Source of the DNA: Stigmatella ashevillena | Lineage (GTDB): Bacteria > Myxococcota > Myxococcia > Myxococcales > Myxococcaceae | Reading direction: 5' to 3' | Assembly: GCF_028368975.1 (NCBI RefSeq) | Contig: NZ_JAQNDM010000002.1 | Coordinates: forward strand, 1,674,001 to 1,738,000 | DNA: 64,000 nucleotides | Part shown: positions 3 to 22,640 of the stretch, piece after piece | How the letters are laid out: each line of letters opens with the position of its first letter | How positions within the stretch are numbered: the stretch's first letter is position 1 | Program-made: the position numbers and the translations under genes | Notes under the pieces: generated by a model | The model's database searches: none | The model's input: the letters and a program-made list of their open reading frames with translations, nothing else | Told to the model about the DNA's origin: nothing

Positions 3-3000
3 CACGATGGACATAGCAGCACGCTGATCGCCCCCAGCAGCGAAGCCCAGGCCGCCCTCCTGCGCGAGGTGCTCGCCAGCGCCCGGCTGAAGCCAGAGGA
101 CATCACCTACGTCGAAGCCCATGGCACGGGCACCCCGGTGGGCGATCCGCTCGAGTTCAGTGCCCTGCGCGAGGTGCTCGGAGGCGAGCGCGAACAACTC
201 CTGCGAGTGGGCGCTGTGAAGTCGAACCTCGGCCACCTTGAGTCCGCGGCCGGCATGGCCAGCCTCCTCAAGGCCGTGCTCACGATCGAACGCGCCGAGC
301 TCGCTCCCAACCTTCACGTGGACCGCGTCAATCCTCGCATCGAGTTGGCGGGCTCCGGCTCGGCGATCCTCACCGAGCGTGTACCCTGGCAGAAGCCCCC
401 TCGAGGGCCTCGCCGGGTCGGCATCAGCAGCTTCGGATTCGCGGGCACCAACGCCCAGGCCATCCTCGAAGAGCCCCCAGAGAGCCCCATGGAGTCGCCT
501 CCTTCTCCTCGTTCACGGCACATGCTCTGTCTGTCGGCCAGGAGCGACACCGCTCTCGCCGAGCAGGCCCGCCGCTACCAGCGGCACCTGCGGGAGCGCC
601 CCTCGATTGAACTGGCCGACCTCTGCTTCACCGCTGCCGCGGGCCGGTCGCACTTCGAGCACCGCGCGGCCTGGGCCCTCGAGAGCCGCGAGCAGGCCAT
701 GGCAGCCCTTGACCGGCTCGCGCGCGGCGAGGCCTCCGAGGAGATTGCCCTCGGGAAGCGTACGTCCGATCAGCCACCGCGCGTGGTGTTCCTGTTCACG
801 GGACAGGGCTCGCAGTACCCCGGCATGGGCCGCTCCCTCTACGCCCAGGAGCCCGTCTTCCGCGACGCCTTGGACTCCTGCGCTCTCGCCTTGCAGGGCC
901 TGCTTCCCAAGCCCCTGCTCGAGGTCCTCTTCTCTCCTCCTGACGACCCCTCCATCCACCAGACCCTCTACTCTCAGCCGGCCCTCTTCAGCCTCCAGTT
1001 CTCTCTCTGCAAACTCTGGGAAAGCTGGGGCGTACGACCCTCCGCTCTCATCGGCCACAGCGTCGGCGAGTTCGCTGCTGCCTGTCTCTCTGGCTCCCTG
1101 GACCTTCACGACGCTCTGCGCCTCGTCTCCTCTCGCGCTCGCCTCATGCAGTCCTTGCCTCTGAACGGCTCCATGCTCGCAGTTCAGGCTCCCTCTGACG
1201 TCGTGCGCCAGGCTCTGCCTTCCTCCTCTTCTCACCTCGTCTCCATCGCCGCCCTCAACGGGCCTCGCAGCACCGTCCTTTCTGGCGAACACAACGCACT
1301 TCTCCACATCGCCTCCTCACTGGAACTCTCGGGCATCAAGTCCCAGCGCCTCTCCGTCTCCCACGCCTTCCACTCCCCTCTCCTGGAGCCCATCCTCGAT
1401 GAGTTCCAGCGCTTCGCTGCCTCCATCCCCTCTCGCCCTCCTCGCTTAAAGCTCATCTCCAACCTCTCCGGCCTTCCCTTCTCCCAAGGCCAAGCACCTG
1501 ACGCCCTCTACTGGCGCAGGCATGCTCGTGAGCCTGTTCTCTTCGAACAGGGCATGCGCTCTCTGGCTGACTCCGGCTTCTCTCTCTTCCTGGAGATCGG
1601 TCCTCACCCCACTCTCTCCTCCCTGGCTCGCACCTTCCTGGACAGCGGCGACGGCGCGCAAACCTGGCTCTCATCGATGCATCGGGAGCGCGACGAGTCG
1701 GCCCAACTCCTCGCCAGCGCAGCCGCGCTCTACGCCCGAGGAGTGGACTTCGACTGGGAGGGCTTCTATCGCCATCGCGGAGGCCGCAAGGTCTCCCTGC
1801 CCACCTACCCCTTCGAGCACAAGCGCTACTGGATCCCGCCCGAGTCCCGGAGGGGAGGCCTCGACGCCGATGGCGCGCCCCTGCACCCGCTCCTTGGGCG
1901 GCGCCTGCCATCGGCCCTGGCGACCATCCCCTTCTGCTCGGAACTCAGCGCGGAGGAGCCCGCCTTCCTGCGAGACCACCGTGTCCACGGGATGACCCTG
2001 TTCCCAGCGACCGGGTACGTGGAGCTGGCGCTCGCCGCCGTGCGCGCGATCCACGGTGAGGGCCCCTGCACGCTGAAGAACCTCGGCTTTGAGCGAGGCT
2101 TGATGCTCCCCGAGGGCGGCAGGCGCCGGGTACAGGTGCTCGTGACGCCCGCGGGCACGGAGCGAGCGTCGTTCGAGATCCACGGCCAGGGCACTGGCAA
2201 AGACGAAGAGACCGCCTGGATCCTGCACGCCCGTGGCGAGGCTGTGTTCGAGCGGCCCGCCCTCGCGCAAGAGGAGGTGAGCGCGTGGAAGCGCCGACTG
2301 ACCGACGCGGTAGATGTCGCGGCGCAATACCAGGCACTGACGGACGAGGGGCTTGAGTATGGCCCCGGCTTCCAGGGCCTGACGGAGGCCTGGACCTCGA
2401 GCGCAGCCCCAGGAGAGGCGCTGGCCACGGTGCGGCTACCGCGGGAGCTGAGCGAGGACGCGGGGATGTACCGCCTCCACCCTGCGATGCTGGACGCCTG
2501 TCTCCAGGCGATCGCCGCGGCGCGACGCTCCCTGGCGGGCTCCAACCCCCACTCCCAGGACACCTATCTGCCGGTGGGAGTAGACGAGCTCACCTTCTAC
2601 CAGAGCGCCACCGAGGTGCTCTGCTATGTCACGGTCGAGGAGCGCGGCGCGGGGCCTGGAGCAGCCAGGATGATCTCGGCCCACCTCATGCTGGTGGACA
2701 TGCAGGGGCGGCCCGTGGCCCGGCTGCGTGGGCTCAAGCTCCAGCGCGTCGATCGAGGCGCCCTTCGCCTCATGGCGAAGCCCCAGGTTCGGGACTGGTT
2801 CTATGAACTCACCTGGAAGAAGCTGGCGAGCGAGCCGACGGCCTCGGCGAAGCCCGCCGCGCAGGAGCCTGGAACCTGGTTGGTGCTGGCGGATGCGGGC
2901 GGAGTGGCGCACGCGCTCGTCGACGTCCTCACACGCCAGGGACACCGCTGCCTGAAAGTCGCTGCCTCGCCCGCCGGAGTCCCCAGCGGAGCCGAGGGGG

Positions 3001-5804
3001 CATCGCGCTCAGAGGCCACACGGAAGATCGACGCCTGGGTCGATCCCACCCGGCCTGAGGAGTTCGACCGGCTCGTGGCCACCGTCCACGAGCAGGGCCG
3101 ACTGCTCGGAGTGATCCACCTGTGGGCGCTGGATGACCATGCCCTCCGGGAGACCTCGGAGGACTTCCTGGTCGCCGACCAGCAACGGACGAGCATCAGC
3201 GCTCTCCATCTCGTGCAGTCGCTCGCCCGCGCGCGCGGTGAGCCCCCAGCCCTGTTCCTGGTGACGCGCAGCGCCTGGTCCGTGCTCGATGGAGACTGCG
3301 TGTCCGCTCCTCAGGCCTCGCTGTGGGGCCTGGGCCGGATCATCGCCCTGGAGCACCCCGAACTCCGCTGCCGCCTCATCGATCTCGATGGCCGCTCCGG
3401 GCCCCACGGAGCCCTGAACGCCGAGGGCGCTGAAGGCCCCGGAGACCTCGTGGCCGCCGCGGAGGCCCTCGTGGCCGAGTTCAAGCACGGCGGGGACGAG
3501 CCGCAGGTGGCCCTGCGCGGTGATCAGCGCTACGGCGCGCGCCTCACCCGCCTGCGCAAGCTCGGCGCCGAGGCCGAGGAGCGCCTGACACGGCCCCCAG
3601 GCGAGTCCTTCGCGCTCGAGACCCGGCGGCCGGGCATCCTCGAAGAACTCACCTTGGGCCCGGCGCCGAGGCCTCTGCCCGGGCGGGGGCAGCTCGAGGT
3701 CGAGGTCGCCGCCGCTGGCCTCAACTTCCGTGATGTGATGAACGCGATGGGCACCTACCCCGGTGGCCCGGAGCCCATGGGCGGTGAGTGCGCGGGTCGC
3801 GTGACGGCCCTGGGCGAGGGCGTCTCAGGCTTCGCGGTCGGTGATGAGGTGGTGGTCGGCCTGACCCGAGGCGCCTTCCGCCGCTTCGTGCTCGCCGATG
3901 CCCGCTTCGTGGCCCACAAGCCGACCACGCTCGACTTCAGCGAGGTGGTGACGCTGCCGGTGACCTACCTCACCGCGGCCTATGGGCTGTTGCGCCTGGC
4001 AGCCTTGAAGCCAGGCGAGCGCGTCCTCATCCACGCGGGAGCTGGAGGCGTGGGACTGGCCGCGATCCAGCTCGCCCAGCGTGCGGGAGCGGAGATCTTC
4101 ACGACGGCTGGCAGTCCTCGCAAGCGCGACCTCCTGCGCTCGTTGGGCGTCGAGCACGTGCTCGACTCGCGCTCGCTGGCCTTCACCGATCAGATCCGCG
4201 CCTTGACGAAGGGCCGGGGCGTGGATGTCGTGTTGAACTCCCTGGCCGGCGAGTTCGTCGCCAAGAGCATGGCGCTGCTCGGACCTGGCGGGCGCTTCAT
4301 CGAGATCGGCAAGGTCAACATCCTCCGCCCGGAAGAGGTGCCCACTGGCGTGAGCTACCACGCCTTCGACATCGGCGAGGTGTGCGCGCGCGAGGACTCA
4401 CTCTGGAAAGAGATGTTCGATGACATCCTCCAAGGGATCGAGGTCGGCAAGCTGCGGCCCCTGCCCCACGAGGCATATGCCATCGAAGAGGCCCGGAGCG
4501 CGTTCCGCTACATGGCCCAGGGTCGGCACATCGGCAAGCTGGTCCTGACATTCGGAGAGAACCCCACCGAGGGCTCGAGTCCTCGCGTCCCCATTGCCAC
4601 GGACGGCGCCTACCTGATCACCGGAGGCCTCGGCGGACTCGGCCTGCGCGTGGCCCGCTGGCTCCTGGAGCGCGGCGCCGACCAGGTCATCCTGGTCAGC
4701 CGCCGCCGTCCCTCGGACGAGGTCCAGTCCCGGCTGCGCGAGCTGGAAGCCATTGCGCCCGGCGAGGCTCGCGTCGTCGTGGCCCTCGGCGATGTCGCGC
4801 GAGCCCAAGACCTGGAGCGGATCCTCGACTCGATCGGTCGCTCGCGCCGACTGCGCGGCATCGTGCATGCCGCTGGCTTCGTGGAGGATGGCATCCTCGC
4901 CCGGCTGAGCCAGGACAGCATGGCGCGGGTGATGGCGCCCAAGATGCTCGGAGCCTGGCACCTGCACCAGCTCACGCGCCACCGGACGCTCGACTTCTTC
5001 GTCGGGTTCTCGTCCATGACGTCACTGCTCGGCAACCCCGGGCAGGGCAACTACGCCGCGGCCAACGCCTTCCTGGACGCCCTGATGCACTACCGCCGTG
5101 GCATCGGCCTGCCGGGCCTGAGCGTCAACTGGAGCATCTGGCGCGAGGTCGGCATGGCCGCCGCAGATCCTGCTCGACGGCTGACTCCGCTCGAGTCCCG
5201 TGGGATTGACGCCATTGGCCCCGATGAGGGCATCGCGGCCATGGAGGCCCTGCTCGCTGGCAGGATCGCCCAGGCGGGCGTCATGGCTGTCGATTGGAAT
5301 CGATACCTGGGCAGCGCCGCAGCGAGCGCCCCGCCGACCCTGGCCCACCTGGTACAGGCCCGGAATCGAACGACCGCCTCGCCCGCGAGCAAGGCCCCGC
5401 AGGCGCTGTCGCCAGAGGGAGTGGAAGAGGCGCTCATCGCCGAGATCCGCCGGGTGCTCGACCTGGACGAGGATCTCCACGTCAACCCTACCGAGCCACT
5501 GGATCAGTTGGGGCTCGACTCGCTCATGGCCGTGGAGCTGCGCAACCGCCTGGGCGCGCTGCTCGGGACCACCCTGCCCGCGACCCTCCTCTTCGATTAC
5601 CCGAGCATCCAGGCCCTGGCCGGCTACGTGCGGACCGAGGTGCTGCACACGGCCGCCGAAGAGCCCGCAGCCGTGGAGCCCCCTCCGGCCCTGGCCATGC
5701 CCGCGAGCGGAAACAAGGTGGCCGCGATCCTGGCCGCCATCGATAACTTGTCCGATGCAGAGCAACAGCAGCTCCTGGAAACCCTTTTGGATGGGGAGGC
5801 ATAG
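3..5804 (+). CDS. Type I polyketide synthase, fully reducing module [KS]-AT-DH-ER-KR-ACP (5' partial)
   Basis: The gene enters from the left edge; the frame is open from base 3 and the first visible residues are already mid-KS, so the start and KS active-site Cys lie outside. Visible order by nucleotide: KS C-terminal half with EAHGTGT and NLGHLES (about 3-480); AT 788-1641 with GHSVGE (Ser codon 1059) and HAFH, predicting malonyl-CoA; DH from about 1880 with an intact H-x3-G-x4-P (HRVHGMTLFP) and LDACLQ; ER about 3630-4540 with a nucleotide-binding GAGGVG; KR about 4605-5160 with GGLGGLG, Ser and Tyr in GQGNYAAAN; ACP with GLDSL (Ser codon 5520). The C-terminal ~30 residues look like a docking helix. 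All three reductive domains appear intact, so the module should leave a saturated two-carbon unit. The stop TAG overlaps the GTG start of the next gene by one base. The AT is part of an 854-bp repeat with foreign-looking codon use. Confidence 0.95.
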   Translation, partial: HDGHSSTLIAPSSEAQAALLREVLASARLKPEDITYVEAHGTGTPVGDPLEFSALREVLGGEREQLLRVGAVKSNLGHLESAAGMASLLKAVLTIERAELAPNLHVDRVNPRIELAGSGSAILTERVPWQKPPRGPRRVGISSFGFAGTNAQAILEEPPESPMESPPSPRSRHMLCLSARSDTALAEQARRYQRHLRERPSIELADLCFTAAAGRSHFEHRAAWALESREQAMAALDRLARGEASEEIALGKRTSDQPPRVVFLFTGQGSQYPGMGRSLYAQEPVFRDALDSCALALQGLLPKPLLEVLFSPPDDPSIHQTLYSQPALFSLQFSLCKLWESWGVRPSALIGHSVGEFAAACLSGSLDLHDALRLVSSRARLMQSLPLNGSMLAVQAPSDVVRQALPSSSSHLVSIAALNGPRSTVLSGEHNALLHIASSLELSGIKSQRLSVSHAFHSPLLEPILDEFQRFAASIPSRPPRLKLISNLSGLPFSQGQAPDALYWRRHAREPVLFEQGMRSLADSGFSLFLEIGPHPTLSSLARTFLDSGDGAQTWLSSMHRERDESAQLLASAAALYARGVDFDWEGFYRHRGGRKVSLPTYPFEHKRYWIPPESRRGGLDADGAPLHPLLGRRLPSALATIPFCSELSAEEPAFLRDHRVHGMTLFPATGYVELALAAVRAIHGEGPCTLKNLGFERGLMLPEGGRRRVQVLVTPAGTERASFEIHGQGTGKDEETAWILHARGEAVFERPALAQEEVSAWKRRLTDAVDVAAQYQALTDEGLEYGPGFQGLTEAWTSSAAPGEALATVRLPRELSEDAGMYRLHPAMLDACLQAIAAARRSLAGSNPHSQDTYLPVGVDELTFYQSATEVLCYVTVEERGAGPGAARMISAHLMLVDMQGRPVARLRGLKLQRVDRGALRLMAKPQVRDWFYELTWKKLASEPTASAKPAAQEPGTWLVLADAGGVAHALVDVLTRQGHRCLKVAASPAGVPSGAEGASRSEATRKIDAWVDPTRPEEFDRLVATVHEQGRLLGVIHLWALDDHALRETSEDFLVADQQRTSISALHLVQSLARARGEPPALFLVTRSAWSVLDGDCVSAPQASLWGLGRIIALEHPELRCRLIDLDGRSGPHGALNAEGAEGPGDLVAAAEALVAEFKHGGDEPQVALRGDQRYGARLTRLRKLGAEAEERLTRPPGESFALETRRPGILEELTLGPAPRPLPGRGQLEVEVAAAGLNFRDVMNAMGTYPGGPEPMGGECAGRVTALGEGVSGFAVGDEVVVGLTRGAFRRFVLADARFVAHKPTTLDFSEVVTLPVTYLTAAYGLLRLAALKPGERVLIHAGAGGVGLAAIQLAQRAGAEIFTTAGSPRKRDLLRSLGVEHVLDSRSLAFTDQIRALTKGRGVDVVLNSLAGEFVAKSMALLGPGGRFIEIGKVNILRPEEVPTGVSYHAFDIGEVCAREDSLWKEMFDDILQGIEVGKLRPLPHEAYAIEEARSAFRYMAQGRHIGKLVLTFGENPTEGSSPRVPIATDGAYLITGGLGGLGLRVARWLLERGADQVILVSRRRPSDEVQSRLRELEAIAPGEARVVVALGDVARAQDLERILDSIGRSRRLRGIVHAAGFVEDGILARLSQDSMARVMAPKMLGAWHLHQLTRHRTLDFFVGFSSMTSLLGNPGQGNYAAANAFLDALMHYRRGIGLPGLSVNWSIWREVGMAAADPARRLTPLESRGIDAIGPDEGIAAMEALLAGRIAQAGVMAVDWNRYLGSAAASAPPTLAHLVQARNRTTASPASKAPQALSPEGVEEALIAEIRRVLDLDEDLHVNPTEPLDQLGLDSLMAVELRNRLGALLGTTLPATLLFDYPSIQALAGYVRTEVLHTAAEEPAAVEPPPALAMPASGNKVAAILAAIDNLSDAEQQQLLETLLDGEA
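788..1641 (+). repeat. 854-bp near-identical direct repeat, copy 1 (AT domain)
   Basis: This copy matches 7543-8396 at a constant offset of 6755 bp. Reading both copies, I found one difference (T at 1613, C at 8368), and the encoded residues are identical. It begins in FLFTGQGSQ and ends in ARTFL, so it is exactly one AT domain. Its codons differ from the flanks: Ser TCT/TCC, Pro CCT, Leu CTC and occasional AAA/GAA, with a pyrimidine-rich sense strand. Immediately outside, both copies diverge fully. Confidence 0.95.
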
Positions 5805-8800
5805 TGTCCCTCCGACGCAAGACCGCCTTGGCCAGCCGCTTCGCCCGCAAGCTGCAGCGCCATACCACCGAGCCCATCGCTGTCGTCGGCATGAGCTGCC
5901 GCTTCCCGGGCGCGCCCGACCTCGAGGCCTACCGGCGGCTGTTCTCCGAGGCCTGGGAGACCCGGCGAGAGATCCCATCGGAGCGCTGGGACAACAACGC
6001 CTATTACAGCCCGACGCCGGGGCTCCCCGGCGCCATCTCCACGCGCCATGGCGGCTTCATCGATCACATCGATCGCTTCGACGCCGGGTTCTTCCGCCTC
6101 ACTCCGCGCGAGGTCGAGGCCATGGACCCCCAACACCGCCTGCTGCTCGAGCTGGCATGGGAGGCCTTCGAGTCGGCGAGCATGCCCCCGCGCGTCCTGT
6201 CTGGCAGCCAGACCGGTGTGTTCGTGGGCATCTCGACCTTCGACTACGTGGATCTCACCGACACCCACGCGCCGGATGGCTACACGAACACGGGCCTCTC
6301 CCACAGCGCGGCCGTGGGGCGGGTATCGTACTTCTTCGATCTCAAGGGCCCGTGTGAGGCCATCGACACGGCATGCTCCGGGTCGCTGGTCGCGGTCCAC
6401 AATGCCTGCCAGAGCTTGCGCGCGAACGAGGTGGACTGCGCCCTGGCCGGAGGAGTCAACGCGCTCATCGCGCCCTACGGCTTCATGGGGTTCTCGCAGG
6501 CCGGGATGATGGCGCCGGATGGCCTCTGCAAGACCTTCGACGCCCGAGCCGATGGGTACGGCCGGAGCGAGGGCTGCGGCATGGTGGTGCTCAAGCGGCT
6601 GTCCGACGCGCGGCGCGATCGCGACATCATCCATGCGCTCATCACAGGCTCGGCGGTGAACCACGACGGCCGCAGTCAGGGCTTCACCGCTCCCAACGGG
6701 CTGGCACAGCGGGATGTGGTGCAGCGAGCGTGGAAGCTCGGCGGCTATGGTCCCGAGGACATCGATTACGTCGAAGCCCACGGGACGGGCACGTCCCTGG
6801 GGGATCCTCAGGAACTGCTGGCGCTGAGCGGCATCTTCCGGGGCCGAGAGACCGCCGACAAACGCGTCGTGGTGGCCTCGGCCAAGACCAACATCGGGCA
6901 CTTGGAGTCCGCGGCCGGCATCGCCGGGCTCATCAAGCTGGTGCTCATGGTCCGTGACGCGGAGATCTTCCCGCACCTCCACTTGCAGCGGACCAACCCC
7001 AACATCGATCTCGGCACCCTGCCGCTACAGATCCCCACCGAGCGCCGTCCGTGGCGCACGCGCGCGTCCAGGCGCGTGGGGGGAGTGAGTTCCTTCGGCT
7101 TCAGCGGCACCAACGCCCACGTGCTCGTGGAGTCCGTAAGCGATGAGGCGGAGCCCGAGGCCACGGAGGCAGCAGGCGCGGAGACCGGCGACGGCGCGAG
7201 CGCCAGTGAAGGCGCGAGCCCCAGTGAGACCGCAGCCCCACCGCCGCCACCTCCGCTGCCCCTGCGTCCGGTGCAGATCGTGCCCCTGTCGGCCCGCTCG
7301 CGCACAGCACTCACGGCCCTGGCGGGACGTTGGTCCCGGCACACCCGTGAGCACGTGAGCGATGAGCTGACGGATCTGGCTTTCACGGCCGCCACGGGTC
7401 GCCACCACTTCGAGCATCGCGCTGCCGTCGTGGCCTCTTCGCGGCGTGAACTCGATGCCGCGCTCGATGCCGCGCGTCGCGGAGCTGAGGACAAGAACCT
7501 CGTGCAAGGTGGCGCTCGGCCTCGGGTTCAGCCCAAGCTGGCGTTCCTGTTCACGGGACAGGGCTCGCAGTACCCCGGCATGGGCCGCTCCCTCTACGCC
7601 CAGGAGCCCGTCTTCCGCGACGCCTTGGACTCCTGCGCTCTCGCCTTGCAGGGCCTGCTTCCCAAGCCCCTGCTCGAGGTCCTCTTCTCTCCTCCTGACG
7701 ACCCCTCCATCCACCAGACCCTCTACTCTCAGCCGGCCCTCTTCAGCCTCCAGTTCTCTCTCTGCAAACTCTGGGAAAGCTGGGGCGTACGACCCTCCGC
7801 TCTCATCGGCCACAGCGTCGGCGAGTTCGCTGCTGCCTGTCTCTCTGGCTCCCTGGACCTTCACGACGCTCTGCGCCTCGTCTCCTCTCGCGCTCGCCTC
7901 ATGCAGTCCTTGCCTCTGAACGGCTCCATGCTCGCAGTTCAGGCTCCCTCTGACGTCGTGCGCCAGGCTCTGCCTTCCTCCTCTTCTCACCTCGTCTCCA
8001 TCGCCGCCCTCAACGGGCCTCGCAGCACCGTCCTTTCTGGCGAACACAACGCACTTCTCCACATCGCCTCCTCACTGGAACTCTCGGGCATCAAGTCCCA
8101 GCGCCTCTCCGTCTCCCACGCCTTCCACTCCCCTCTCCTGGAGCCCATCCTCGATGAGTTCCAGCGCTTCGCTGCCTCCATCCCCTCTCGCCCTCCTCGC
8201 TTAAAGCTCATCTCCAACCTCTCCGGCCTTCCCTTCTCCCAAGGCCAAGCACCTGACGCCCTCTACTGGCGCAGGCATGCTCGTGAGCCTGTTCTCTTCG
8301 AACAGGGCATGCGCTCTCTGGCTGACTCCGGCTTCTCTCTCTTCCTGGAGATCGGTCCTCACCCCACCCTCTCCTCCCTGGCTCGCACCTTCCTGGCGAA
8401 CCCTCAAGGAGACGAGGACGAGCGGGTCTGGCTCTCGTCTCTCTCTCATGAGAAGGACGACACCCAGAGCATCCTGGAGAGCGCGGCCGCGCTCTACGCC
8501 CACGGGATCGAGTTGGACTGGGCGCGTTTCCACGAGCGCCGTCCGGCCCGGAAGGTGCTCCTGCCCTCCTACCCCTTCGAGCGCAAGCGCCACTGGCTCG
8601 CTCCTGCGAGCAAGCAACAACCTCTGGCTCCCAAGGCAGCCAATGGCCACCCCCTGCTGGGCCGACGCCTGCCATCGGCCATGCCTGGGGCGCAGTTCGA
8701 AGCCATCCTGGGCGCCGGGTCACCCGCGTATCTGTCCGGCCACCGCATCTACGGCCTAACGGTCTTCCCAGCGACTGGGTATGTGGAACTGGCCCTCGCC

Positions 8801-9913
8801 GCGATGCGTGCCGTGGTCGGTGAGCACCCGTGCGAACTCGAGAACGTGTCCATCGAGCGCGCCCTGATCCTTTCCGACGACAGCCAGCGCAGGGTCCAGG
8901 TGCTACTCGTGCCCATGTCGCACGAGAGTGGCGAGGAGCGGTTCCGCTTCGAGATCCACAGCCAGCCCTTCCAGGGCGATGACGTGGAGGGGCCGATCAT
9001 GCCCTGGCTCCTCCACGCGAGGGGCGAGGCCCGCAGAGACACCGCGACCCAGAGCATGCCCCCCCCTCCCCACCAGACCGCCGAGAGCGCTGCGGCCATG
9101 CTCAAGAGTGAGGTCGAGATCGCTCCAAAGGACTTCTACAAGGTCCTGACCGAGCGCGGCATGGGCTACACAGGTGCGTTTCGGCCCCTCACCTCGATCC
9201 GGCGTGGATCCCACGGCTCCGGCATGGCCTTCGCGCATGCGGCCCTGCCCGCGGAGGAGCACTCCCACCCGGTGCAGCCGAATGCCCGCCATGTGGTCCA
9301 CCCAGCGCTCCTCGACGGCTGCTTGCAGGCCATCGGGGCCGCACTCACCACGAAGTTCGCGGCGGGCAACGCCATCAACATGGCCTATCTGCCGGTGGCC
9401 ATCGGGCGCGTGCGTCTGAGGCGCCCCCCTGGCAACGAGGTGTCGAGCCACGTGGAAGTCCAGTTCGACAAAGGCCTGGAGTACAGCGCCACGCTCTCCG
9501 TGTTCTCCGCCGATGGCTCGCCCGCGCTCGAGATCGAGGGCCTGCGCATGCAAGGCGTGGAGCGCTCGCGCCTGCGCGAGGCCACCTCGGAGCGACAGCA
9601 GGGCGCGGACATCCTGCACAAGCTCGGAGAGGCCTCGCTCACGGAGCGCTGGGGGCTGATGGTCTCCTTCCTCGCCAACCAGGTCGCCGACATCATGGGC
9701 ATCGAGAGCAACGAGATCGAAGGAGGGCTCATGTACTTCGAACTCGGCATGAACTCGCTGGGCTCCGTGGAACTCCAGTACCGGATCCAGAAGAACCTGC
9801 GCTGCGAGCTGCCGAAGAACCTGATCGTCGACTACGAGAGCACCGAGTCCCTGGCCACCCGCCTGCTCACCCAAGTGTTCGGCCAGGACTCCTTCCAGAG
9901 GGTGCAACCATGA
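5804..9913 (+). CDS. Type I polyketide synthase module KS-AT-DH-ACP (no KR)
   Basis: The 1369-residue protein starts at GTG 5804, which overlaps the upstream stop by one base. Order: N-terminal basic linker; KS about 25-450 with active Cys191 in TACSGS (TACSSS is usual), HGTGTS and NIGHLES; AT about 581-865 with Ser671 in GHSVGE and HAFH (malonyl); DH about 949-1235 with His980 in HRIYGLTVFP and Asp1171 in LLDGCLQ; ACP with Ser1318 in GMNSL, where the usual Asp before Ser is Asn. The DH runs directly into the ACP. There is no KR, so the intact-looking DH would have no beta-hydroxy substrate made in this module; it may act on another module's product, receive a KR in trans, or be idle. The C-terminus ends soon after the ACP with no TE and no clear docking helix, so this could be the last extension module, with release by the separate hydrolase at 11336. 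The stop overlaps the radical SAM start (ATGA). Confidence 0.93.
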   Translation: MSLRRKTALASRFARKLQRHTTEPIAVVGMSCRFPGAPDLEAYRRLFSEAWETRREIPSERWDNNAYYSPTPGLPGAISTRHGGFIDHIDRFDAGFFRLTPREVEAMDPQHRLLLELAWEAFESASMPPRVLSGSQTGVFVGISTFDYVDLTDTHAPDGYTNTGLSHSAAVGRVSYFFDLKGPCEAIDTACSGSLVAVHNACQSLRANEVDCALAGGVNALIAPYGFMGFSQAGMMAPDGLCKTFDARADGYGRSEGCGMVVLKRLSDARRDRDIIHALITGSAVNHDGRSQGFTAPNGLAQRDVVQRAWKLGGYGPEDIDYVEAHGTGTSLGDPQELLALSGIFRGRETADKRVVVASAKTNIGHLESAAGIAGLIKLVLMVRDAEIFPHLHLQRTNPNIDLGTLPLQIPTERRPWRTRASRRVGGVSSFGFSGTNAHVLVESVSDEAEPEATEAAGAETGDGASASEGASPSETAAPPPPPPLPLRPVQIVPLSARSRTALTALAGRWSRHTREHVSDELTDLAFTAATGRHHFEHRAAVVASSRRELDAALDAARRGAEDKNLVQGGARPRVQPKLAFLFTGQGSQYPGMGRSLYAQEPVFRDALDSCALALQGLLPKPLLEVLFSPPDDPSIHQTLYSQPALFSLQFSLCKLWESWGVRPSALIGHSVGEFAAACLSGSLDLHDALRLVSSRARLMQSLPLNGSMLAVQAPSDVVRQALPSSSSHLVSIAALNGPRSTVLSGEHNALLHIASSLELSGIKSQRLSVSHAFHSPLLEPILDEFQRFAASIPSRPPRLKLISNLSGLPFSQGQAPDALYWRRHAREPVLFEQGMRSLADSGFSLFLEIGPHPTLSSLARTFLANPQGDEDERVWLSSLSHEKDDTQSILESAAALYAHGIELDWARFHERRPARKVLLPSYPFERKRHWLAPASKQQPLAPKAANGHPLLGRRLPSAMPGAQFEAILGAGSPAYLSGHRIYGLTVFPATGYVELALAAMRAVVGEHPCELENVSIERALILSDDSQRRVQVLLVPMSHESGEERFRFEIHSQPFQGDDVEGPIMPWLLHARGEARRDTATQSMPPPPHQTAESAAAMLKSEVEIAPKDFYKVLTERGMGYTGAFRPLTSIRRGSHGSGMAFAHAALPAEEHSHPVQPNARHVVHPALLDGCLQAIGAALTTKFAAGNAINMAYLPVAIGRVRLRRPPGNEVSSHVEVQFDKGLEYSATLSVFSADGSPALEIEGLRMQGVERSRLREATSERQQGADILHKLGEASLTERWGLMVSFLANQVADIMGIESNEIEGGLMYFELGMNSLGSVELQYRIQKNLRCELPKNLIVDYESTESLATRLLTQVFGQDSFQRVQP
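7543..8396 (+). repeat. 854-bp near-identical direct repeat, copy 2 (AT domain)
   Basis: Second copy of the AT cassette at 788-1641, in the same orientation and in frame. The edges coincide with the AT domain: upstream linkers (PRVV- against PKLA-) and downstream linkers (DSGDG against ANPQG) are unrelated between copies. The CT-rich codon use stops at both borders. This looks like recent gene conversion or domain exchange rather than duplication of a whole module. Confidence 0.95.
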
Positions 9914-11325
9914 ATCCACCTGTTGGCAAGTCCGCGCGCTCCTCCGTCGAGTCCGCGCGGGACTTCATCGAGCGCAACCTGAACACGCGCCAGGTGAACA
10001 AGGTGCTGCACGCCTTCCCCTCACCGCGCCTGTGGCAGGAGACGGAGATCCCGGTGCGCGAGCTGCTCGAGCAGCGCAAGGCGGCAAAGCAGAGCCGCGA
10101 TCTGGCCCTGTACATCGCCGTGCCCTACTGCATTCGCACCGATCCGGATCGCTGCGGATACTGCCTGTTCCCCGTCGAGGTCTACACCGGCAACAACGAC
10201 CTGGAGACCTACTTCGACTACCTGCGCCGCGAGGGCGAATTGTACCGGGGGATGTTCGAGCAGGATCGAATCGTCAACATCTACTTCGGCGGCGGCACCT
10301 CCAACCTCTACCGCGCCGACAAGTACCCCCAGCTCATGGAACTGGTGCGGCAGCACTTCGCACTGCCGGACGGCATCTCCATCACCCTCGAGGGAATCCC
10401 GCAGCTCTTCACGCGCGAGAAGCTGCAGCAGATCAAGGAGAGCGGGATGAACCGCGTGAGCATGGGCGTCCAGCAGATGAACGACGAGCTGAACGCGCTC
10501 AGCGGCCGCAAGCAGACCGTCAAGCACACCCTGCAGACGATCGAGTGGTGTCAAGAGCTGGGGCTGCCGTGCAACGTGGACCTCATCTTCGGCTGGCCAC
10601 GCCAGACCGTGGCCACGATGATGAAGGACCTCGAGCTGCTGGTGAGCACGGGGATCCACCACATCACCCATTATGAGCTCAACGTCGGAGGCCCTACCGA
10701 CTTCGCCCTGAACCGCCGCCACGAGCTGCCCTCGGTGGAGGAGAACCTGGAGATGTACCGGGTGTCGCGCGACTTCCTGAAGAGCCGCGGCTACGTCCAG
10801 CTCACCCCGTACGACTGGGAGAAGATCGACGCTCCGGAGCAGAGCCTCTACGAAGAGTGTGACCGCGAGTTTCGCGCCATGGACATCTTCGGCTGGGGCT
10901 ACGCGGGCGTGTCCCAGTTCTCAGGCGCCGGTGGCGGGAACGCCTGGACCTATCGCCAGCACACCTCGGTCAAGGACTACTACCAGGCCATCGATCAAGG
11001 CCGGATCCCCTTCGAGCGGGGCTTCGTCCACCAGGAGGTGGACCACCGCCTGTCGCAGCTCTTCCGCAACTTGCAGGGCCTGGACGTGGATCTCGATGCG
11101 TACAAGAAGACCTTCGGGATCGAACTCCTGGAGGAGTACGTCGGCGCCTGGCAGGCCCTGGGCGAGCGAGGCTTCATCGAGATCGACGGCAGGCGGCTGC
11201 GCCTGGTGGGGGATGGCGTGTTCTACACGCCCATGATCCAGACGCTGCTCTCGCGCGAGCGCATCGCCGAGCTGAGCCGCTCGCTCCACGCCCAGGCGCG
11301 GTCCGCCCCCCCGCCCGCAGCCTGA
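9910..11325 (+). CDS. HemN/HemW-like radical SAM enzyme, probable polyketide tailoring
   Basis: A 471-residue protein of the coproporphyrinogen oxidase-like (HemN) radical SAM family. Seen: cysteines 74, 82 and 85 where the 4Fe-4S/SAM site is expected, a YFGGGT motif at about 125-130, the segment NRVSMGVQQ with a downstream DLIFGWP like the HemN core, and a HemN-like C-terminal winged-helix segment near 390-450. The cluster is spaced C-x7-C-x2-C instead of the family's usual C-x3-C-x2-C, with Asp, Pro and Asp in the extra residues. The start ATG overlaps the stop of the KS-AT-DH-ACP gene, so the two are translationally coupled. Known relatives inside PKS/NRPS clusters (Jaw5 of jawsamycin, C10P of CC-1065) make cyclopropanes or transfer methyl/methylene groups. 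A similar radical modification of the polyketide is inferred here, not shown. A heme-pathway role is less likely given the context. Confidence 0.85.
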   Translation: MNPPVGKSARSSVESARDFIERNLNTRQVNKVLHAFPSPRLWQETEIPVRELLEQRKAAKQSRDLALYIAVPYCIRTDPDRCGYCLFPVEVYTGNNDLETYFDYLRREGELYRGMFEQDRIVNIYFGGGTSNLYRADKYPQLMELVRQHFALPDGISITLEGIPQLFTREKLQQIKESGMNRVSMGVQQMNDELNALSGRKQTVKHTLQTIEWCQELGLPCNVDLIFGWPRQTVATMMKDLELLVSTGIHHITHYELNVGGPTDFALNRRHELPSVEENLEMYRVSRDFLKSRGYVQLTPYDWEKIDAPEQSLYEECDREFRAMDIFGWGYAGVSQFSGAGGGNAWTYRQHTSVKDYYQAIDQGRIPFERGFVHQEVDHRLSQLFRNLQGLDVDLDAYKKTFGIELLEEYVGAWQALGERGFIEIDGRRLRLVGDGVFYTPMIQTLLSRERIAELSRSLHAQARSAPPPAA

Positions 11326-11335
11326 GGATCCCTGC

Positions 11336-12250
11336 ATGAGCCAGCCCACCTCCCACTTCCTTGAAGGCGACGGGGCGAAGATCCACTACCTGCGCTGGAA
11401 CGAACCCCATGAGGGCCGTCCGACCGCAGTGCTCACGCATGGCCTGGGCTTCGTGGGGGCTTCGTGGATGCTCCTGGCGTGTGAACTCGCGCGCGATTAC
11501 ACGGTCTACGCCATCGACCGCCGCGGCCATGGGCTCAGCGAGCTGACGGGAGAGCGTGACTTCTCGTTCGAGCTCTTCAGCCGCGACCTGATCCTCTTCC
11601 TGGATACCCTCGGCGTGCGGGGCGCTTATGGCATCGGCCACAGCTCGGGGGCCACGGACATGCTCCTGGCCGCTGCTGCGCGTCCTCATGCCTTCGAGCG
11701 CATCCTGGCCGTAGAGCCCACCGCGCAGGATCCGCGCGCCCAGCGCGAGCCGGATCCCACGCTGTCGGAGCTGTGCCAGGGGTTCGTCGAGCGCACGCGC
11801 TACCGCAAGGGCCCGTATCCCAGCCGCGAAAAGGCGCTCGAGATGTTGCGCAAGCGCTCGCCTATCCAGAACTGGCACCCCGAACTGCTGCGCGCCCAGA
11901 TTGATCATGGCTATCGCGACGCTCCGGGCGGAGGGGTCGAGCCCTGCTGCCCACCCACCGTCGAGGCCGAGATGCTGGTCCCCATCTTCCAGACGATGGA
12001 GAACCGCTACCCTGGCCGCGAATTCGAGCGCCTCCTGGAGATCAGGTGCCCGGTGCTCGTCATCTCGGCCGACGAGAGCAACCCCGTCTTCGGGGCCATG
12101 GCCGCGCTCGTCGCCCAGGTGATCCCGGGAGCCCGCCTCGAGCATCGCCAGGGAGCCACCCACTTCTGGCCTCAGGAGCGTCCAGACGAGTTCGCTCAGC
12201 AGGTCGCCACCTTCGCCTCCACCGTCACGAGGTCACCGACATGGACCTGA
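11336..12250 (+). CDS. Alpha/beta hydrolase, candidate stand-alone thioesterase or tailoring hydrolase
   Basis: A 304-residue single-domain alpha/beta hydrolase. Seen: an oxyanion-type THGLGF segment near residue 35, DRRGHG after strand 4, nucleophile elbow G-H-S-S-G with Ser103, a late Asp in VLVISADES (about 242), and catalytic His in GATHFW (about 275). No signal peptide. GAGGA lies 7 bases before the ATG, overlapping the radical SAM stop region; the two genes are separated by 10 bases. The preceding PKS lacks a thioesterase, so release or editing of the chain is a reasonable role. Lactone opening, ester hydrolysis or hydrolytic tailoring are alternatives, because the fold does not define the substrate. 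The last codons overlap the next gene. Confidence 0.85.
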   Translation: MSQPTSHFLEGDGAKIHYLRWNEPHEGRPTAVLTHGLGFVGASWMLLACELARDYTVYAIDRRGHGLSELTGERDFSFELFSRDLILFLDTLGVRGAYGIGHSSGATDMLLAAAARPHAFERILAVEPTAQDPRAQREPDPTLSELCQGFVERTRYRKGPYPSREKALEMLRKRSPIQNWHPELLRAQIDHGYRDAPGGGVEPCCPPTVEAEMLVPIFQTMENRYPGREFERLLEIRCPVLVISADESNPVFGAMAALVAQVIPGARLEHRQGATHFWPQERPDEFAQQVATFASTVTRSPTWT

Positions 12251-13092
12251 ATTCCGACATGGCCCTTCGCATCTACGAGCAGGTCTTCTGGGGCATCGAC
12301 AAGCCGCTGGCCTATACCCTGGAGGAGGACGAATCCGGGGCGCGCAAGCCCGTCTCCATCCCCGCGGGCATCCCCTGGTACGCCAGCCACCCCGATCCCC
12401 GCATGCCAGTGTGGTTCCTCCAGGAGCTCATCGCCGAAGCCTCGGCCAAGAGCATCACCGGCCTGTCCCTGGCAGGGTGTCGGCAGCTCGATGACGAGGC
12501 CTTCGCGCACCTCCGCGCCGCCTCGCACCTCGAAGTGCTCGACCTGTTCAACACCCGTCTGGGTGACGCCGGGGCCGCGGAGCTTGGAAAGCTCACGGCG
12601 CTCCGATCGCTCAACCTGGCAGGCACGGCCATCACCGATCGTGCGTGCGAGGCGATCGCGTCCCTGCCCGCGCTCGAGACGCTGCACCTCGGGTGGACCG
12701 AGATCAGCGATGTCGCCCTGGCGTCGCTGTCAGCAGCACCGTCGTTGAAGACCCTGGATCTGCGTGGGACCCGGATCACCGACGCAGGACTGGCCCGGCT
12801 GGCACGCCTGAAGAGTCTCCGGGCACTGAGCCTGCAAGAGACCGGCATCGGTGATGCCGGAGTGGCCGCACTCGAGCCGCTGGCACCCGTCCTCGAGCGC
12901 CTATACCTGGGCTACACCCGGGTGACAGACGCGTGCGTCCCCAAGCTCGCGGCGTTCGCGCGCTTGCGCACCCTCTCCCTCCGGGCAACGGTGATCAGCG
13001 CCGAGCAGGAGAAGAAGCTCGCCGCAGCGCTGACGGTCCTTGGAGGCGTCGGGACCGGGCCCCAGGGCATCCAGGAAGGCTTGATTCGCTGA
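12241..13092 (+). CDS. Leucine-rich-repeat protein of unknown role in the PKS operon
   Basis: A 283-residue protein. I chose ATG 12241, which overlaps the hydrolase's last 10 bases; an upstream in-frame start would run out of phase through the hydrolase gene. Residues 1-70 are a unique N-terminal cap (motifs WGIDKP, PAGIPWYASH). Residues about 72-252 form seven to eight repeats of roughly 24 residues of the form LxxLxLxxTxITDxxxxxLAxL. The tail of about 30 residues is glycine-rich. No signal peptide, transmembrane segment or catalytic motif is visible, so it is probably a cytoplasmic binding scaffold. Such proteins are not standard parts of PKS clusters. Its place between the hydrolase and the ligase-ER-ACP-KS gene, with overlaps, suggests co-expression and perhaps protein-protein contact with the synthase, but no function can be assigned. 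Confidence 0.85.
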   Translation: MDLNSDMALRIYEQVFWGIDKPLAYTLEEDESGARKPVSIPAGIPWYASHPDPRMPVWFLQELIAEASAKSITGLSLAGCRQLDDEAFAHLRAASHLEVLDLFNTRLGDAGAAELGKLTALRSLNLAGTAITDRACEAIASLPALETLHLGWTEISDVALASLSAAPSLKTLDLRGTRITDAGLARLARLKSLRALSLQETGIGDAGVAALEPLAPVLERLYLGYTRVTDACVPKLAAFARLRTLSLRATVISAEQEKKLAAALTVLGGVGTGPQGIQEGLIR

Positions 13093-13100
13093 GGACGAGG
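13091..13100 (+). promoter_or_regulatory. Ribosome binding site that sets the start of the ligase-ER-ACP-KS gene
   Basis: Purine-rich GAGGACGAGG ends 8 bases before ATG 13109 and begins at the stop codon of the LRR gene. It supports the ATG as start and coupling to the upstream gene. Confidence 0.6.
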
Positions 13101-13108
13101 CCTCGCCC

Positions 13109-16100
13109 ATGCTCTACGGACTTCTCCACCGCGCGGCACGTGCAGCTCCCGAGCGCACCGCGATCGTCTACGGCACCGCGCGCATCAGCTACCGCCGGCT
13201 GCTGCGCGGTGTCGAGGGCTTCGCCGCCGAGCTTGGCGCCGCAGGCCTCGAGGCCTCGGATTGCGTGTCCCTGGTCTTGGGCAACAATCCCCAGTTCGTG
13301 GTGGCGCTCTTCGCCGCAGCCCGGCGCGGGTGCGTGGTGCTGCCGCTGAGCCCGCAGCTCGCCGACGATGCGCTCGTTCGCTACTTCTCCGATGCCCGGC
13401 CGCGCAGGGTCGTCACCACGCAGGCCCAGGCAGAGCGATGCCGACAGGCCCTGGCTCGCAGCGAGCTGGAGGCGGCCGTGAGCGTCGTCTCGGACATCGC
13501 GCTCCCCGACGCTGACGTCGACCTGGATGCCCCCAGCGAGGCGGCACGGACGCCCTTCCGCGGCAGGGCCCTCTACCTCTACACATCGGGCTCAGAGGGC
13601 TACAAGAAGCGCATCTGCCGCACCCAGGAGAACCTGTATTACGAGTCGATCAACTTCGTACACTCGGCCACGCTGGGACCTGAGGACACGGTCGGATGCC
13701 TGGTGCCGCTCTATCACTCCTACGGGCTGGGCAACGGGCTGCTCGCGGCCGTGGGCGCGGGATCCACCCTGGTCCTCCTGGCGCCCCGCAGCGAGGAGGG
13801 CGAACAGGTGGAGTTGCCCTTCGCCGCCCGAGGCAAGGAGGCGTTGGCGCTCCTCGAGCGCGAAGGTGTGCGCGTGCTCGCGGCCGTGGCCCACCAGTAC
13901 GAAGCCCTGGCGCAACTGCCTCGTGAGCCCGGCCAGCCGTCCACGCTGCCAGCGCTCCGGTGGTGCCTGAACTCGGGCAACCGGCTGCCTCTAGAGGTCT
14001 ACCAGCGCTTCCTGGAGCGCTTTGGCACTCCCATCCGTCAGCTCTATGGGTCCACAGAGACGGGATCAATCGCCGCCAACCTGATCACAGACGACAGCTT
14101 CCGCCCCGACGGGGTAGGTGCCTGCCTCGAGAACGTCAAGGTCTCGATCGTGGACGAGCAGGGTCAGGAGCTTCCTCCGGGCGCCGTGGGGGCCGTGCTG
14201 GTCTCGAGCCCTGTCCTGCCCCCCGACGGCTATGACGGACACCCGGAGGCCACTCGGGCGGCATTCTCGGGCGGCTTCTACCGCACCGGCGATCTCGGCT
14301 GCCTGAGCCAGGAAGGCATCCTGCGCATCGTCGGCCGCAAGCAGACCTTCATCGACACCGGCGGCTACAAGGTCGATCCCAGGAACGTGGAGACCGTGCT
14401 GCTCGATCATCCTTGGGTGCGCGAGGCCGTCGTCCTCGGGGTTCATGCGCCGGGGCTCGGCCAGGTGGTGAAGGCGGTGATCGTCGCGCAAGAGGGCTGC
14501 GACGAGGCCTCGCTCGTGCGGCACTGCCAAGGACGGCTGGCCGCGTACGAGGTGCCGCGCCTCTTCGACTTTCGCAAGGAGTTGCCTCGGAGCCCGCTGG
14601 GAAAGATCCTCAAGGAGGAACTCCTCGGTGGCGCGGGGGCGGGAGGAGGTTGCTTCGTCCTCGGCTCCGACGGCGCGTTCGGGCTGGAGCGGATGAACTG
14701 GAAGCGCGGCGAACCCCAGGCACCCGGACCGGGTGAGGTCCGGATCCAGGTCCTCGCCGCGGGCCTCGGCGCACTGGATGCGCGACTGGGCCAGGGCGAG
14801 TCCCCCGAGGCCTCATCCGGTGGCACCTCCGGAGCTTTGCGCTTCGGCAGCGAGTGCTGTGGCCGGGTCGTCTCGCTCGGCGAAGGGGTCACCCGCCTCA
14901 ACGTGGGTGACGAGGTCATCGCTGTCACCTTCGGCTGTCTCGCCAGCCATGTCTGTGTTCCCGAAGCGCTGGTCGTGCCCAAGCCGCGGTCTCTGACGGT
15001 GGAAGAAGCCGCGGCACTCCCTGCGACCTATGTGCTCGCCCACTACGCGCTGGTACAGGTGGCGAGGCTCCAGAAGGGAGAGCGCCTGCTCATCCATGCC
15101 GCAGGCGGCGGCATCGGGCTCGCGGCGCTGCAGACGGCCCAGCACCGGGGGGCAGAGGTGTTCGCCACAGCGGACAGCGAGGCCCGGCGCGAGCGTCTGC
15201 GCGCTTCGGGTGCCGCTCGCGTCATGGACTCCCACTCGCGGGCCCTCCCGGACGAGGTGCGCCAGCACACGCACGGCGGGGGCTTCGACGTCATCTTGAA
15301 CTCGCTGGATGGTGAGTTCCTCCCCCCGAGCCTGGAACTCCTGCACGAGGGCGGCCGCTTCGTCGAACTGGACAAGCGTGGCGCCCATGCCGACCACCCG
15401 CTCGGGCTCGGCCCCTTCCAGCGCGGGCTCGGCTTCACACTCGTGGATCTGCACGGCCTGCTGTCACACCGCCCGCAGCTCGTCAGCACAGTGCTGGCCG
15501 AGGTCGCCACGCTCGCGGAGGAGGGGGTGTACCGGCCGAGGATCGATCGCAGCTTCCCGGCCTCAGAGATACACGAGGCCTTCCGTTACTTGGAGACGGC
15601 CGCGTACGTCGGCCCGATCGTCATCGACCTACGCGACAGTGAACTCTCGGTGCAGCCCTCCAGCGCGCGCATCGAACCCGAGCTGCGCGGGGCGCTCGAG
15701 GCCGAGCTGGCCTCCCGCTCTCCCGAAGAGCAGCGAGCGTTTCTGGAAGAGCGAATCCGGGGTGAACTCGCGGAACTCCTCCGCACTGACCGCGCCACCC
15801 TGCCGCGTCGCGAGCCTCTGCGCACCCTGGGGCTGGACTCCCTGCACACCGTCCTGTTGCAGCAGCGCCTCGCGAGCATGTGCGGCATCGCCCTGACGGT
15901 GACCTTCATCTGGGAGCACCCCAGCATCGAAGAACTCGCCGCGGGGCTGCTGCGCGAGCTGCGCCTCTCCTCTAACAAGGGGCATGAGCAGACTCCCCGC
16001 ACGCGTGTCCCGCCGAGGATGGAGCGCACGCGTGACGAGCCCTTCGCCATCATCGGCATCGGATGTCGGCTGCCAGGGGGCACCACTTCCCCCTCGGCTT

Positions 16101-17344
16101 TCTGGGAACTGCTGTCGAACGGCGTGGATGCCATTCGCGAAGTTCCCGGGGAGCGATGGCGGGCGGACGACGTTCTCGCACGCGCTGGCGGCGCTCCCGG
16201 GCTCGTCGCCCCGCGCTGGGGCGGCTTCCTGGACGACATCGAAGGCTTCGATGCCTCCTTCTTTGGCATCACGTCGCGTGAGGCCCAGGCCATGGATCCG
16301 CAGCAGCGCCTGCTGCTCGAGGTGAGCTGGGAGGCTCTCGAGGACGCCGGCCTGCCGCCCCTTGGCCTGCGCGAGAGCCGCACGGGCGTCTTCGTGGGCA
16401 TGTCCTTCTCCGACTACGCCGCGCGGGCCCTCTACCCAGGCGACCTGAGCCGGATCACCCCCTACTCGAGCACGGGGAGCATCTTCAGCGTCGCGGCCGG
16501 GCGCATCTCCTATGTCCTGGGACTGAGCGGCCCCAGCCTCGTGGTCGACACGGCGTGCTCCTCTTCACTGCAGGCCATCCACCTCGCATGCCAGAGCCTG
16601 CGCACAGGCGAGTGCGACATGGCGCTCGCTGGCGGCGTCAACCTGCTCCTCGAGCCCCATGCGAGCCTCGCGATGGGCCGCATGGAGGCGCTGGCCCCGG
16701 ATGGCCGCTGCAAGCCCTTCGATGCCTCGGCGGACGGAATCGTGCGCTCCGAAGGCTGCGCCGTCATCGCCCTCAAGCCCTTGAGCGCGGCCTTAAGAGA
16801 CCGCGATCGCATCTACGCGCTCATCCGTGGCTCGGCGAGCAACCATGATGGACGCAGCAACGGCCTGACCGCGCCCAACGGCCGTGCCCAGCGGGCGGTG
16901 ATCCGGCAGGCGCTGGCGCGCGCCCGGGTCTCTCCGGCCGAAGTCGGTTATGTCGAGACCCACGGGACAGGTACTCGCCTGGGTGATCCCATCGAGGTCC
17001 ACGCCCTGGGTGACGTGCTGGGCGAAGGCCGCGACCCCGAGCGCCCGGTCCTCCTGGGCGCGGTCAAGAGCAACATCGGCCACACGGAGGCATGCGCGGG
17101 CGTGGCCGGTCTCATCAAGGCGTCGCTCGTCTTCCAGCACGGCACCATCCCGGCCAACCTTCACTTCCGTGAGCCGAACCCACACATTGCCTGGGGGCCT
17201 CTGGCGATGCGTGTCGCCGCCACGCCCGTGGCATGGCCGGAGCGTGAGGGCGAGCGTCGCATCGCCGGTGTGAGCGCGTTCGGCCTCAGCGGGACCAACG
17301 TCCACGTCATCCTCGAGGAGCCACCTCGAGGGTACGTCCCTTGA
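13109..17344 (+). CDS. PKS starter-type protein: acyl ligase-ER-ACP-KS, ending right after KS
   Basis: A 1411-residue protein. An adenylate-forming ligase occupies about 1-510, with YGSTETG, YRTGDLG and a C-terminal [10 protein letters not shown] carrying the usual Lys; its P-loop is divergent ([10 protein letters not shown] instead of TSGSTGxPKG). An MDR-type ER spans about 516-845 with AAGGGIG. The ACP has Ser911 in GLDSL. The KS spans about 976-1400 with Cys1150 in TACSSS, HGTGT and SNIGHTE. Ligase-ER-ACP-KS is the layout that opens RapA and FkbB, where a free cyclohexene carboxylic acid is activated and its double bond reduced; a comparable unsaturated acid starter is inferred here. The protein stops nine residues after the KS motif NVHVILEE, without the AT and further domains that normally follow. 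Either the module is split onto another protein or the gene was truncated at the nearby tRNA junction. It is the last plus-strand gene. Confidence 0.93.
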
Positions 17345-17420: not shown

Positions 17421-17436
17421 ACTGACTTCATTCGAG

Positions 17437-17508
17437 AGCGGGACAAGGGATTTGAACCCTCGATCCCTGCCTTGGCAAGGCGATGCTCTACCGCTGAGCT
17501 ATTCCCGC
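17437..17508 (-). tRNA. tRNA-Gly (anticodon GCC)
   Basis: The minus strand folds into a 72-base cloverleaf: acceptor 5' strand GCGGGAA, D arm GCTC/GAGC, anticodon loop TTGCCAA (anticodon GCC), T arm GAGGG/CCCTT with loop TTCAAAT, 3' strand GTCCCGC and discriminator T. CCA is not encoded; CTC follows. Two pairs are broken, both by bases in the 3' half: A7-G65 in the acceptor and C27-A41 in the anticodon stem; T26-G42 is a wobble. The 5' half is very close to bacterial tRNA-Gly(GCC). Bases 1-21 also encode the last six residues and the stop codon of the upstream PKS gene on the same strand. It is either a working tRNA with a weakened fold or an integration-site remnant. Confidence 0.88.
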
Positions 17509-20500: not shown

Positions 20501-22640
20501 GGCTGCCGACGCCAGTAGTCGGCGTGCGCCACCACTCCGGGCGCTGCCACCGCGCCAGTCACGGTCGATGCAAACACGCAGCGCGGGGGGCTGAAGCGCA
20601 CCTGCGCCGCCGCGCGCTCCCCGCGTTCGACCGCGAGCCTCAGCGCGTCCTCAAGGCTCATCACGCCCGCGACACTCGCCGCAGAGAGCTCGCCGGCTCC
20701 GTACCCGAGCACCCCCTCCGGACGCACGCCAAAGGACGCCCACAGCTCGGCCAGCGCGTACTGCGTAATGAACAGCGCTGGCTGAACGATAGACGCGTGT
20801 TCGAGCGAGCCCCGGCCGAGCAGCGCCTGCGTCACGTCGGCCCCGAGCGCCGACCCGAGCAGCTGCGCACAGCGCTCCACGGCCGCGCGGTACACGGGTT
20901 CGGTCTCGAAAAGTGTTCGTCCTGTCGTGGTGAGTGGTGCGAGCTCGCCCGTGAAGAGGAACGCTACCCGTGGCCGCTGCGACGCGGACGCCTCACCGGA
21001 CACCACCGTGCGCGAGGGCTTTCCCGCCGCGAATGCGCTGAGCGCCTCCTGAGCCTCTTCCCGGCTCTCCGCTACCACCGCCAGGCGGTGCGAGAGCAGC
21101 GCGCGCCCCAGGTGCGTGGACCGCGCGACATCCGCGAGCGCCGCCCCCCCCGGAGCCCCGAGCAGCGCGGCGTACCGGCGCGCGAGCTCTCGGAGTGACG
21201 CGGACGACTTCGCCGAGAGGGTCAGCAGATGCGCCGACCGGCCCGCGGACACCGGGCGCTGCTCGCGCACGGGCGCCTCCTCCATCACGACGTGCGCGTT
21301 GGTGCCAGACAGACCGAAAGAGCTCACGCCTGCCATCCGCGGCGCGCTCGCACGCTTCCACGGCTGCACCGACGTAGGGATGCTGAACGGCGACCCCGAC
21401 AGCTGGATACGCGGGTTCAATTCGGTGAAGTGCAGGTGCGGCGGGATGGCCTCGTGCTGCAGCGACAGTGCCACCTTGATGATTCCTGCGATTCCCGCCG
21501 CCGCCTCCAGGTGCCCCAGGTTGGTCTTCACGGACCCAAGCCCGCACTTCGAGCCGTCCTTCCGGCTCGCGAACAGCTCCTTGAGCGCGTCCACTTCGAT
21601 GGGGTCACCGAGCGGCGTCCCTGTCCCATGCGCCTCGATGTAGCCCACCTGCTCCGGCCTCACACCCGCGTTCCCAAGCGCCTCGGTAATCACCGCCTGC
21701 TGCGCCTGCGCGTTCGGCGCCGCGAGCCCTGTGCTGCGCCCGTCGTGGTTGACGGCAGAGCCGCGAATCACCGCGAAGATGCGGTCCTCGGCCGCGAGTG
21801 CATCCGGCAGCCGCTTGAGGACGACGACGCCGCAGCCCTCGCCACGCGCGAACCCGTTGGCGCGGATGTCGAACGACTTGCAGCGGCCATCCGGAGACAG
21901 GGCGCCCAGGCGTGACAACATGATCATGCTCTCGGGCGCCAGGAGCAGATTCACCCCCGCCGCGAGCGCCACGTCGGACTCACCGCAGCGCAGGCTCTGG
22001 CATGCCAGGTGGAGCGCAACGAGTGAGGACGAGCACGCGGTGTCCACCGTGAGGCTGGGGCCGTGCAGCCCGAGGAAGTGCGACAGGCGGCCAGCGAGCA
22101 CACTGGACATTCCGCCCGTCACCGAGTGCGCTTCGAAGCGCTCCGGACCGCGACGCTGCGCGAGGATCTCGTAGTCATGGAGGCAGCTGCCGACGAACAC
22201 GCCCACCGCGCGCCCCTTGAGGCTATCCGGTGGCAGGCCCGCGCTCTCCAGTGCTTCCCAGCCCACCTGGAGCAGCAACCGCTGCTGCGGGTCCATCGAC
22301 TGCGCCTCGCGTCCGGAGATTTCGAAGAATGGCGCGTCGAACCGGTCCACCTCATCGAGGAACGTGCCGTAGCGGGTGATCATTTTCCCGGGCGCCTGGG
22401 GGTCCGGATCGTAATAGTCGTCCACGTTCCAGCGCTCGCGTGGGACTTCGCGGACGGCGTCGGTCCCGGCGCGCAGGAACTCCCAGAAGCGCTCGGGGTC
22501 GTCGGCGCCGCCCGGGAAGCGACAGCCGATGCCGACGATGGCAACGGGGCTCGGGGTCTTCCCCACCATCGCTGCGAGCGCGGCGCGGTCCTCGGGTGTC
22601 AGCTCAGCCAGGATGTCCGAGATGGCTTGAAGCGCTTCGT

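Follow-up and report, generated by a model that had tools for sequence, protein, structure and literature searches.

Two neighbouring PKS modules of Stigmatella ashevillena contain AT domains that are nearly identical in DNA sequence and differ in composition from the genes around them, which raises the question of whether the shared segment was brought in from elsewhere or was rewritten where it lies. We address this question in the window, the whole stretch of 64,000 nucleotides that was analysed. Its features are listed in Table 1, and positions are those of the window unless a contig is named.

Table 1. Features of the 64-kb window at and around the duplicated AT segments
Feature	Position	Strand	Remarks
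PKS ORF1, begins upstream of window	3..5804	+	KS (C-terminal part)-AT-DH-ER-KR-ACP
GRINS copy 1: AT domain, module 1	788..1641	+	pyrimidine-rich sense, 853/854 identical to copy 2
PKS ORF2	5804..9913	+	KS-AT-DH-ACP; KR domain not found
GRINS copy 2: AT domain, module 2	7543..8396	+	
Remainder of left block	9910..17344	+	collinear with G036
Radical SAM/HemN-like gene	9910-11325	+	
Alpha/beta hydrolase gene	11336-12250	+	
AMP ligase-ER-ACP-KS gene	13109-17344	+	
tRNA-Gly (gcc)	17436..17508	-	junction of left block (inverted vs G036) and right block
Right PKS block	17516..63996	-	92% identical, co-linear in G036; orientation reference

A nearly identical pair of AT segments

In a pairwise alignment the two AT segments differ only by a single T/C substitution at position 1613. 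Identity outside them drops to 30–50% within about 25 bp on both sides, the DNA flanking the two copies being unrelated at the nucleotide level, and the borders of each copy match the Pfam Acyl_transf_1 region of its ORF. A sequence-only reading made earlier had described one mismatch over 854 bp in dissimilar surroundings, with borders at the AT domain edges, and both descriptions hold. It had also assigned both domains to malonyl-CoA; the motifs GHSVG and HAFH are present in both copies, and from this malonyl-type signature (GHSxG and HAFH) both ATs are likewise predicted to be malonyl-CoA-specific enzymes. An assembly artefact or collapse of the copies is unlikely, because both lie within one 10.0-Mb contig and the independent assembly of a congener, G036, holds the same AT pair.

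The sense strand of both segments is pyrimidine-rich, with a GC skew of -0.35, a TA skew of +0.32 and a GC content of 0.63–0.65. GC3 is about 0.76 and T3 0.16–0.20, compared with 0.84–0.90 and 0.05–0.10 in most of the surrounding sequence, and elsewhere in the 64-kb window |GC skew| peaks at 0.175 among 855-nt tiles. The composition thus differs much as the sequence-only reading described, but its description of the codon use as foreign finds no support: what sets the segments apart is a strand skew and not the codons of a donor genome. The unusual codon use cannot be a donor signature, since the orthologous pair of G036 has a purine skew in place of the pyrimidine skew.

The two segments belong to the known class of GRINS, regions of about 1 kb with strong GC and TA skew whose sequence recurs at high identity elsewhere in the same PKS (PMC10394414, PMC9899208). 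The cut-offs used for both |GC skew| and |TA skew| are >0.15 (PMC9899208) or >0.25 (PMC10394414), and the class goes back to a 2021 PNAS paper, drawn on here as it is cited in PMC10394414, PMC9899208 and PMC11907408. Size and identity were judged by a length near 1 kb and no shorter than 500 bp, and by >80–90% identity to a second region within the same PKS cluster. The window pair is 854 bp long and 99.9% identical, has |GC skew| of 0.35–0.37 and |TA skew| of 0.31–0.32, and lies in frame within the ATs of a KS-AT-DH-ER-KR-ACP and a KS-AT-DH-ACP protein; a scan of the 64-kb window with published-style GRINS parameters returns these two segments as the only duplicates of at least 500 bp. In its size of about 1 kb, identity of >90%, GC and TA skew, centring on the AT and link to gene conversion, the pair resembles GRINS as the cited papers present them.

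Among the further ATs of this genome that were scored, comparable skew occurs only in a second duplicated pair, on contig C1. The copies of this pair (C1:243462-244842 and 254966-256349; L048 in G000, the same genome) are near-identical, and their sense GC skew is +0.35 when measured across the repeat and +0.45 when measured across the AT. Both cluster and skew are conserved in G036, G037, G038, G007 and G060, reaching up to +0.69.

Opposite composition of the orthologous pair in a congener

The two AT copies of G036 are 98.6% identical to each other and have nearly the same borders as the window pair, but they are purine-rich, with a GC skew of +0.30. Their TA skew is -0.07 to -0.09, and this magnitude (0.07–0.09) lies below the GRINS cut-offs. 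Purine/pyrimidine differences between the window and G036 ATs number 261, and the pyrimidine is in the window at 251 of these and in G036 at 10, whereas the flank gives 16 versus 22; for C/G differences the counts in the AT are 136 versus 2. The skew differences are commonest at third codon positions. Four-fold sites are C59 T24 G11 A4 in the window AT and G67 A12 C15 T4 in the G036 AT, and those of conserved residues match at 24% in the AT compared with 62–78% in the flanks. The proteins have shifted as well, the window AT being rich in L, S and P (L49 S42 P23) and the G036 AT in A, G, V and E (A38 G28 V28 E27), with 63% amino acid identity between them compared with about 68–88% around the AT. 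Orthologous ATs opposite in codon and amino acid make-up point to recoding in place, strand-asymmetric and acting at all three codon positions; a protein segment recoded relative to its relatives is a further trait of GRINS.

Block inversion and direction of replication

The AT pair lies in a left block of roughly 18 kb (C2:1673196-1691328) that is inverted in place between the window strain and G036, and which adjoins a tRNA-Gly gene and the collinear right block. The left block is 81% identical to its G036 counterpart, compared with 92% for the right block, and no left-block match beside the right block was found in G038 and G079. Together with the tRNA-Gly neighbour this suggests that the left block may be a separate acquisition or occupy an insertion hotspot. 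We note that the radical SAM/HemN-like protein encoded next to the PKS pair is 87% identical in G036, the next best match in the order being 27%.

The left replichore of the genome contains the window, an assignment backed by the position of dnaA at 5.68 Mb and by the sampled background skew of the + strand, which between 0.4 and 5.0 Mb is negative almost throughout. The PKS operon is therefore head-on to replication, and the leading strand is G-rich at the AT pair. On contig C11 of G036 the background skew is also negative on the + strand, and this weak skew on one contig suggests that the G036 block is co-directional with replication. As the left block is inverted in place, the two AT pairs share one polarity relative to the chromosome.

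Duplicated ATs in complete genomes of relatives

The relation between duplication, skew and replication was surveyed across 12 complete relatives and a total of 163 ATs, a non-random sample favouring the best-scoring AT matches, with loci oriented by motif and strand. Mean |skew| is 0.31 in the 23 duplicated ATs and 0.06 in the 140 non-duplicated ones. Sense skew is positive (sense G-rich) in all 17 co-directional duplicated ATs, several of which are orthologs of one cluster, and negative (sense C-rich) in all six that are head-on, so that the G-rich strand is the leading strand in 23 of 23, as it is in the window pair. Duplication alone is insufficient for skew: the AT triple of G006 (C1:3375412-3387628; L260, L263, L266), about 64 kb from dnaA, has copies 96–99% identical and is almost unskewed (-0.07), although it is homologous (76%) to a strongly skewed triple near the terminus in G037.

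The association of skew polarity with the leading strand is suggestive rather than proven, and we lean towards replication as what sets the polarity. A GRINS pair whose skew sign is random or historical, matching the direction of replication by coincidence, is an unlikely though still appreciable alternative. Independent head-on loci are few (two to three: the window pair, the G037 triple at -0.33 and the weakly skewed homologous G006 triple), and the replication direction of G036 is itself deduced; set against this are the uniform behaviour of the duplicated ATs in the complete relatives together with the window pair, and a skew that flips with block orientation at one and the same locus.

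Relatives and phylogeny of the AT segments

Trees were built from 48 ATs and their partner KSs. The AT tree has the form ((window1,window2),(G036-1,G036-2)), the four ATs forming one clade with support of 100/99, whereas the KS tree pairs window1 with G036-1 and window2 with G036-2, with support of 100/100. The ATs are thus grouped by genome and the KSs by module, a discordance of the kind that gene conversion leaves between copies of GRINS. It shows that the AT segments have been homogenised within each genome by concerted evolution, presumably through gene conversion. In this respect the sequence-only reading, which had proposed that conversion homogenised the two ATs, agrees with the trees.

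Across 92 genomes of the family, no AT comes closer than the orthologous pair of G036 (63% amino acid identity, 402 bits), and the next one is at 55% (329 bits); outside the family, the best match in GTDB genomes reaches 53%. A donor search across both sets found no close AT besides the G036 pair, and comparable skewed repeats were not found at the GTDB comparison loci. We conclude that this is very probably a GRINS pair that was recoded rather than imported.

Alternatively, the two lineages might have acquired separate replacements for the pair, each a different AT that was skewed beforehand and belonged to a related but unsampled AT clade, by GRINS exchange followed by conversion. The ATs of the window and of G036 lie 0.70 apart, roughly fourfold or more the distances between their KSs (0.14–0.19), the left block is the less conserved of the two, and no unskewed intermediate of the window/G036 AT clade was found, all of which such replacement would accommodate. 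Nevertheless, the four ATs are related most closely to one another, and the purine/pyrimidine differences run almost entirely one way, as recoding predicts, and we regard separate replacement as improbable.

More doubtful still is the natural AT swap favoured by the sequence-only reading, in which a foreign AT entered one module, was copied to the other and retained the compositional bias of its donor. Identity that ends at the AT edges and a composition unlike the flanks are what such a swap would leave, but the segment is most similar to the orthologous pair of a congener, and GTDB genomes lack a close AT. The swap is contradicted by the AT tree, in which the window ATs group with the G036 pair and not in a clade foreign to the cluster, and the skew is reversed in the ortholog. 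Selection on the codons or mRNA of the AT segment (purine loading or translation), for which the prevalence of third-position differences might speak, is rejected as scarcely credible, given that the orthologs are opposite in sense-strand composition and that amino acid make-up itself is shifted.

Comparison with known systems and a proposed mechanism

Recoding in place thus stands as the preferred reading, and the best overall explanation, which we consider probable, is a GRINS pair subject to gene conversion and in-place recoding whose polarity follows the chromosome strand. The AT-coding segments of the two modules would already have been paired before the split from G036, and repeated gene conversion, a recombination deduced from the trees, would keep the pair identical in each genome. 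Conversion would not extend beyond the AT, since the linkers on either side of it (KS-AT and post-AT) have probably diverged too far between the two modules to recombine. Meanwhile a strand-asymmetric process would recode the segments at every codon position, its direction set by the chromosome strand and not the coding strand, with the leading strand becoming purine- and G-rich. The window sense strand would then be C/T-rich because the operon is head-on to replication, and that of the inverted, co-directional G036 operon G/A-rich; orientation and skew are associated in the data, and the causal step is our inference. We narrowly favour the more specific version, in which recoding linked to conversion makes the leading strand purine/G-rich, so that inversion of a PKS operon causes its duplicated ATs to be rewritten in the opposite sense, amino acids included.

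To our knowledge, the source of GRINS is an open question. Simple cytosine deamination should leave the leading strand with an excess of G+T; in the strongest cases here that strand has G and A in excess, and therefore deamination of this kind fails as an explanation. As speculation at this point, the asymmetry might stem from mismatch repair with a strand bias, or from error-prone repair synthesis when conversion takes place at forks.

Several features depart from GRINS as presented in the cited papers. The pair is in a myxobacterial genome, orthologous copies have opposite skew, and the polarity, which is purine/pyrimidine in type, seems to go with the leading strand. GRINS are reported to be rare in Proteobacteria (PMC10394414). 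The literature search brought up no paper that connects GRINS with the direction of replication, and in the literature searched for GRINS we found no description of ortholog-specific skew reversal tied to operon orientation. The pair is reminiscent of the concerted evolution of PKS domains by gene conversion, in that copies within a genome are closer than orthologs and AT and KS trees disagree, but here conversion goes hand in hand with a directional recoding of the segment that it affects. As in the replication-strand GC skew of chromosomes, the leading strand is G-rich; unlike it, the AT skew is several times the sampled background (about 0.02–0.1), is confined to duplicated segments, and in the strongest cases leaves the leading strand A-rich and not T-rich.

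Orthologous GRINS of opposite skew in an inverted operon separate the coding strand from the chromosome strand, and they favour repair or conversion coupled to replication over selection on codons. The window and its inverted G036 ortholog constitute a natural experiment which, with somewhat better than even odds, shows that replication sets GRINS polarity, and they offer a testable rule, namely that the leading strand is G-rich. A strand-biased process can evidently push the sequence of an enzyme far, as judged by AT identity relative to the protein around it, while the catalytic motifs are kept, and this bears on PKS evolution and engineering.

Other AT matches in the window

Two further AT matches, both in leftwards-oriented PKS genes, are incomplete. 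The AT at 20284-20961 (-), in the PKS at 17488-22644, is internally truncated, covering only Pfam positions of about 1–118 and 212–317 in two parts separated by a short gap, and this split pattern recurs in several relatives. At 53623-53991 (-), in the PKS at 47209-55665, the AT match spans only Pfam positions 3–122.
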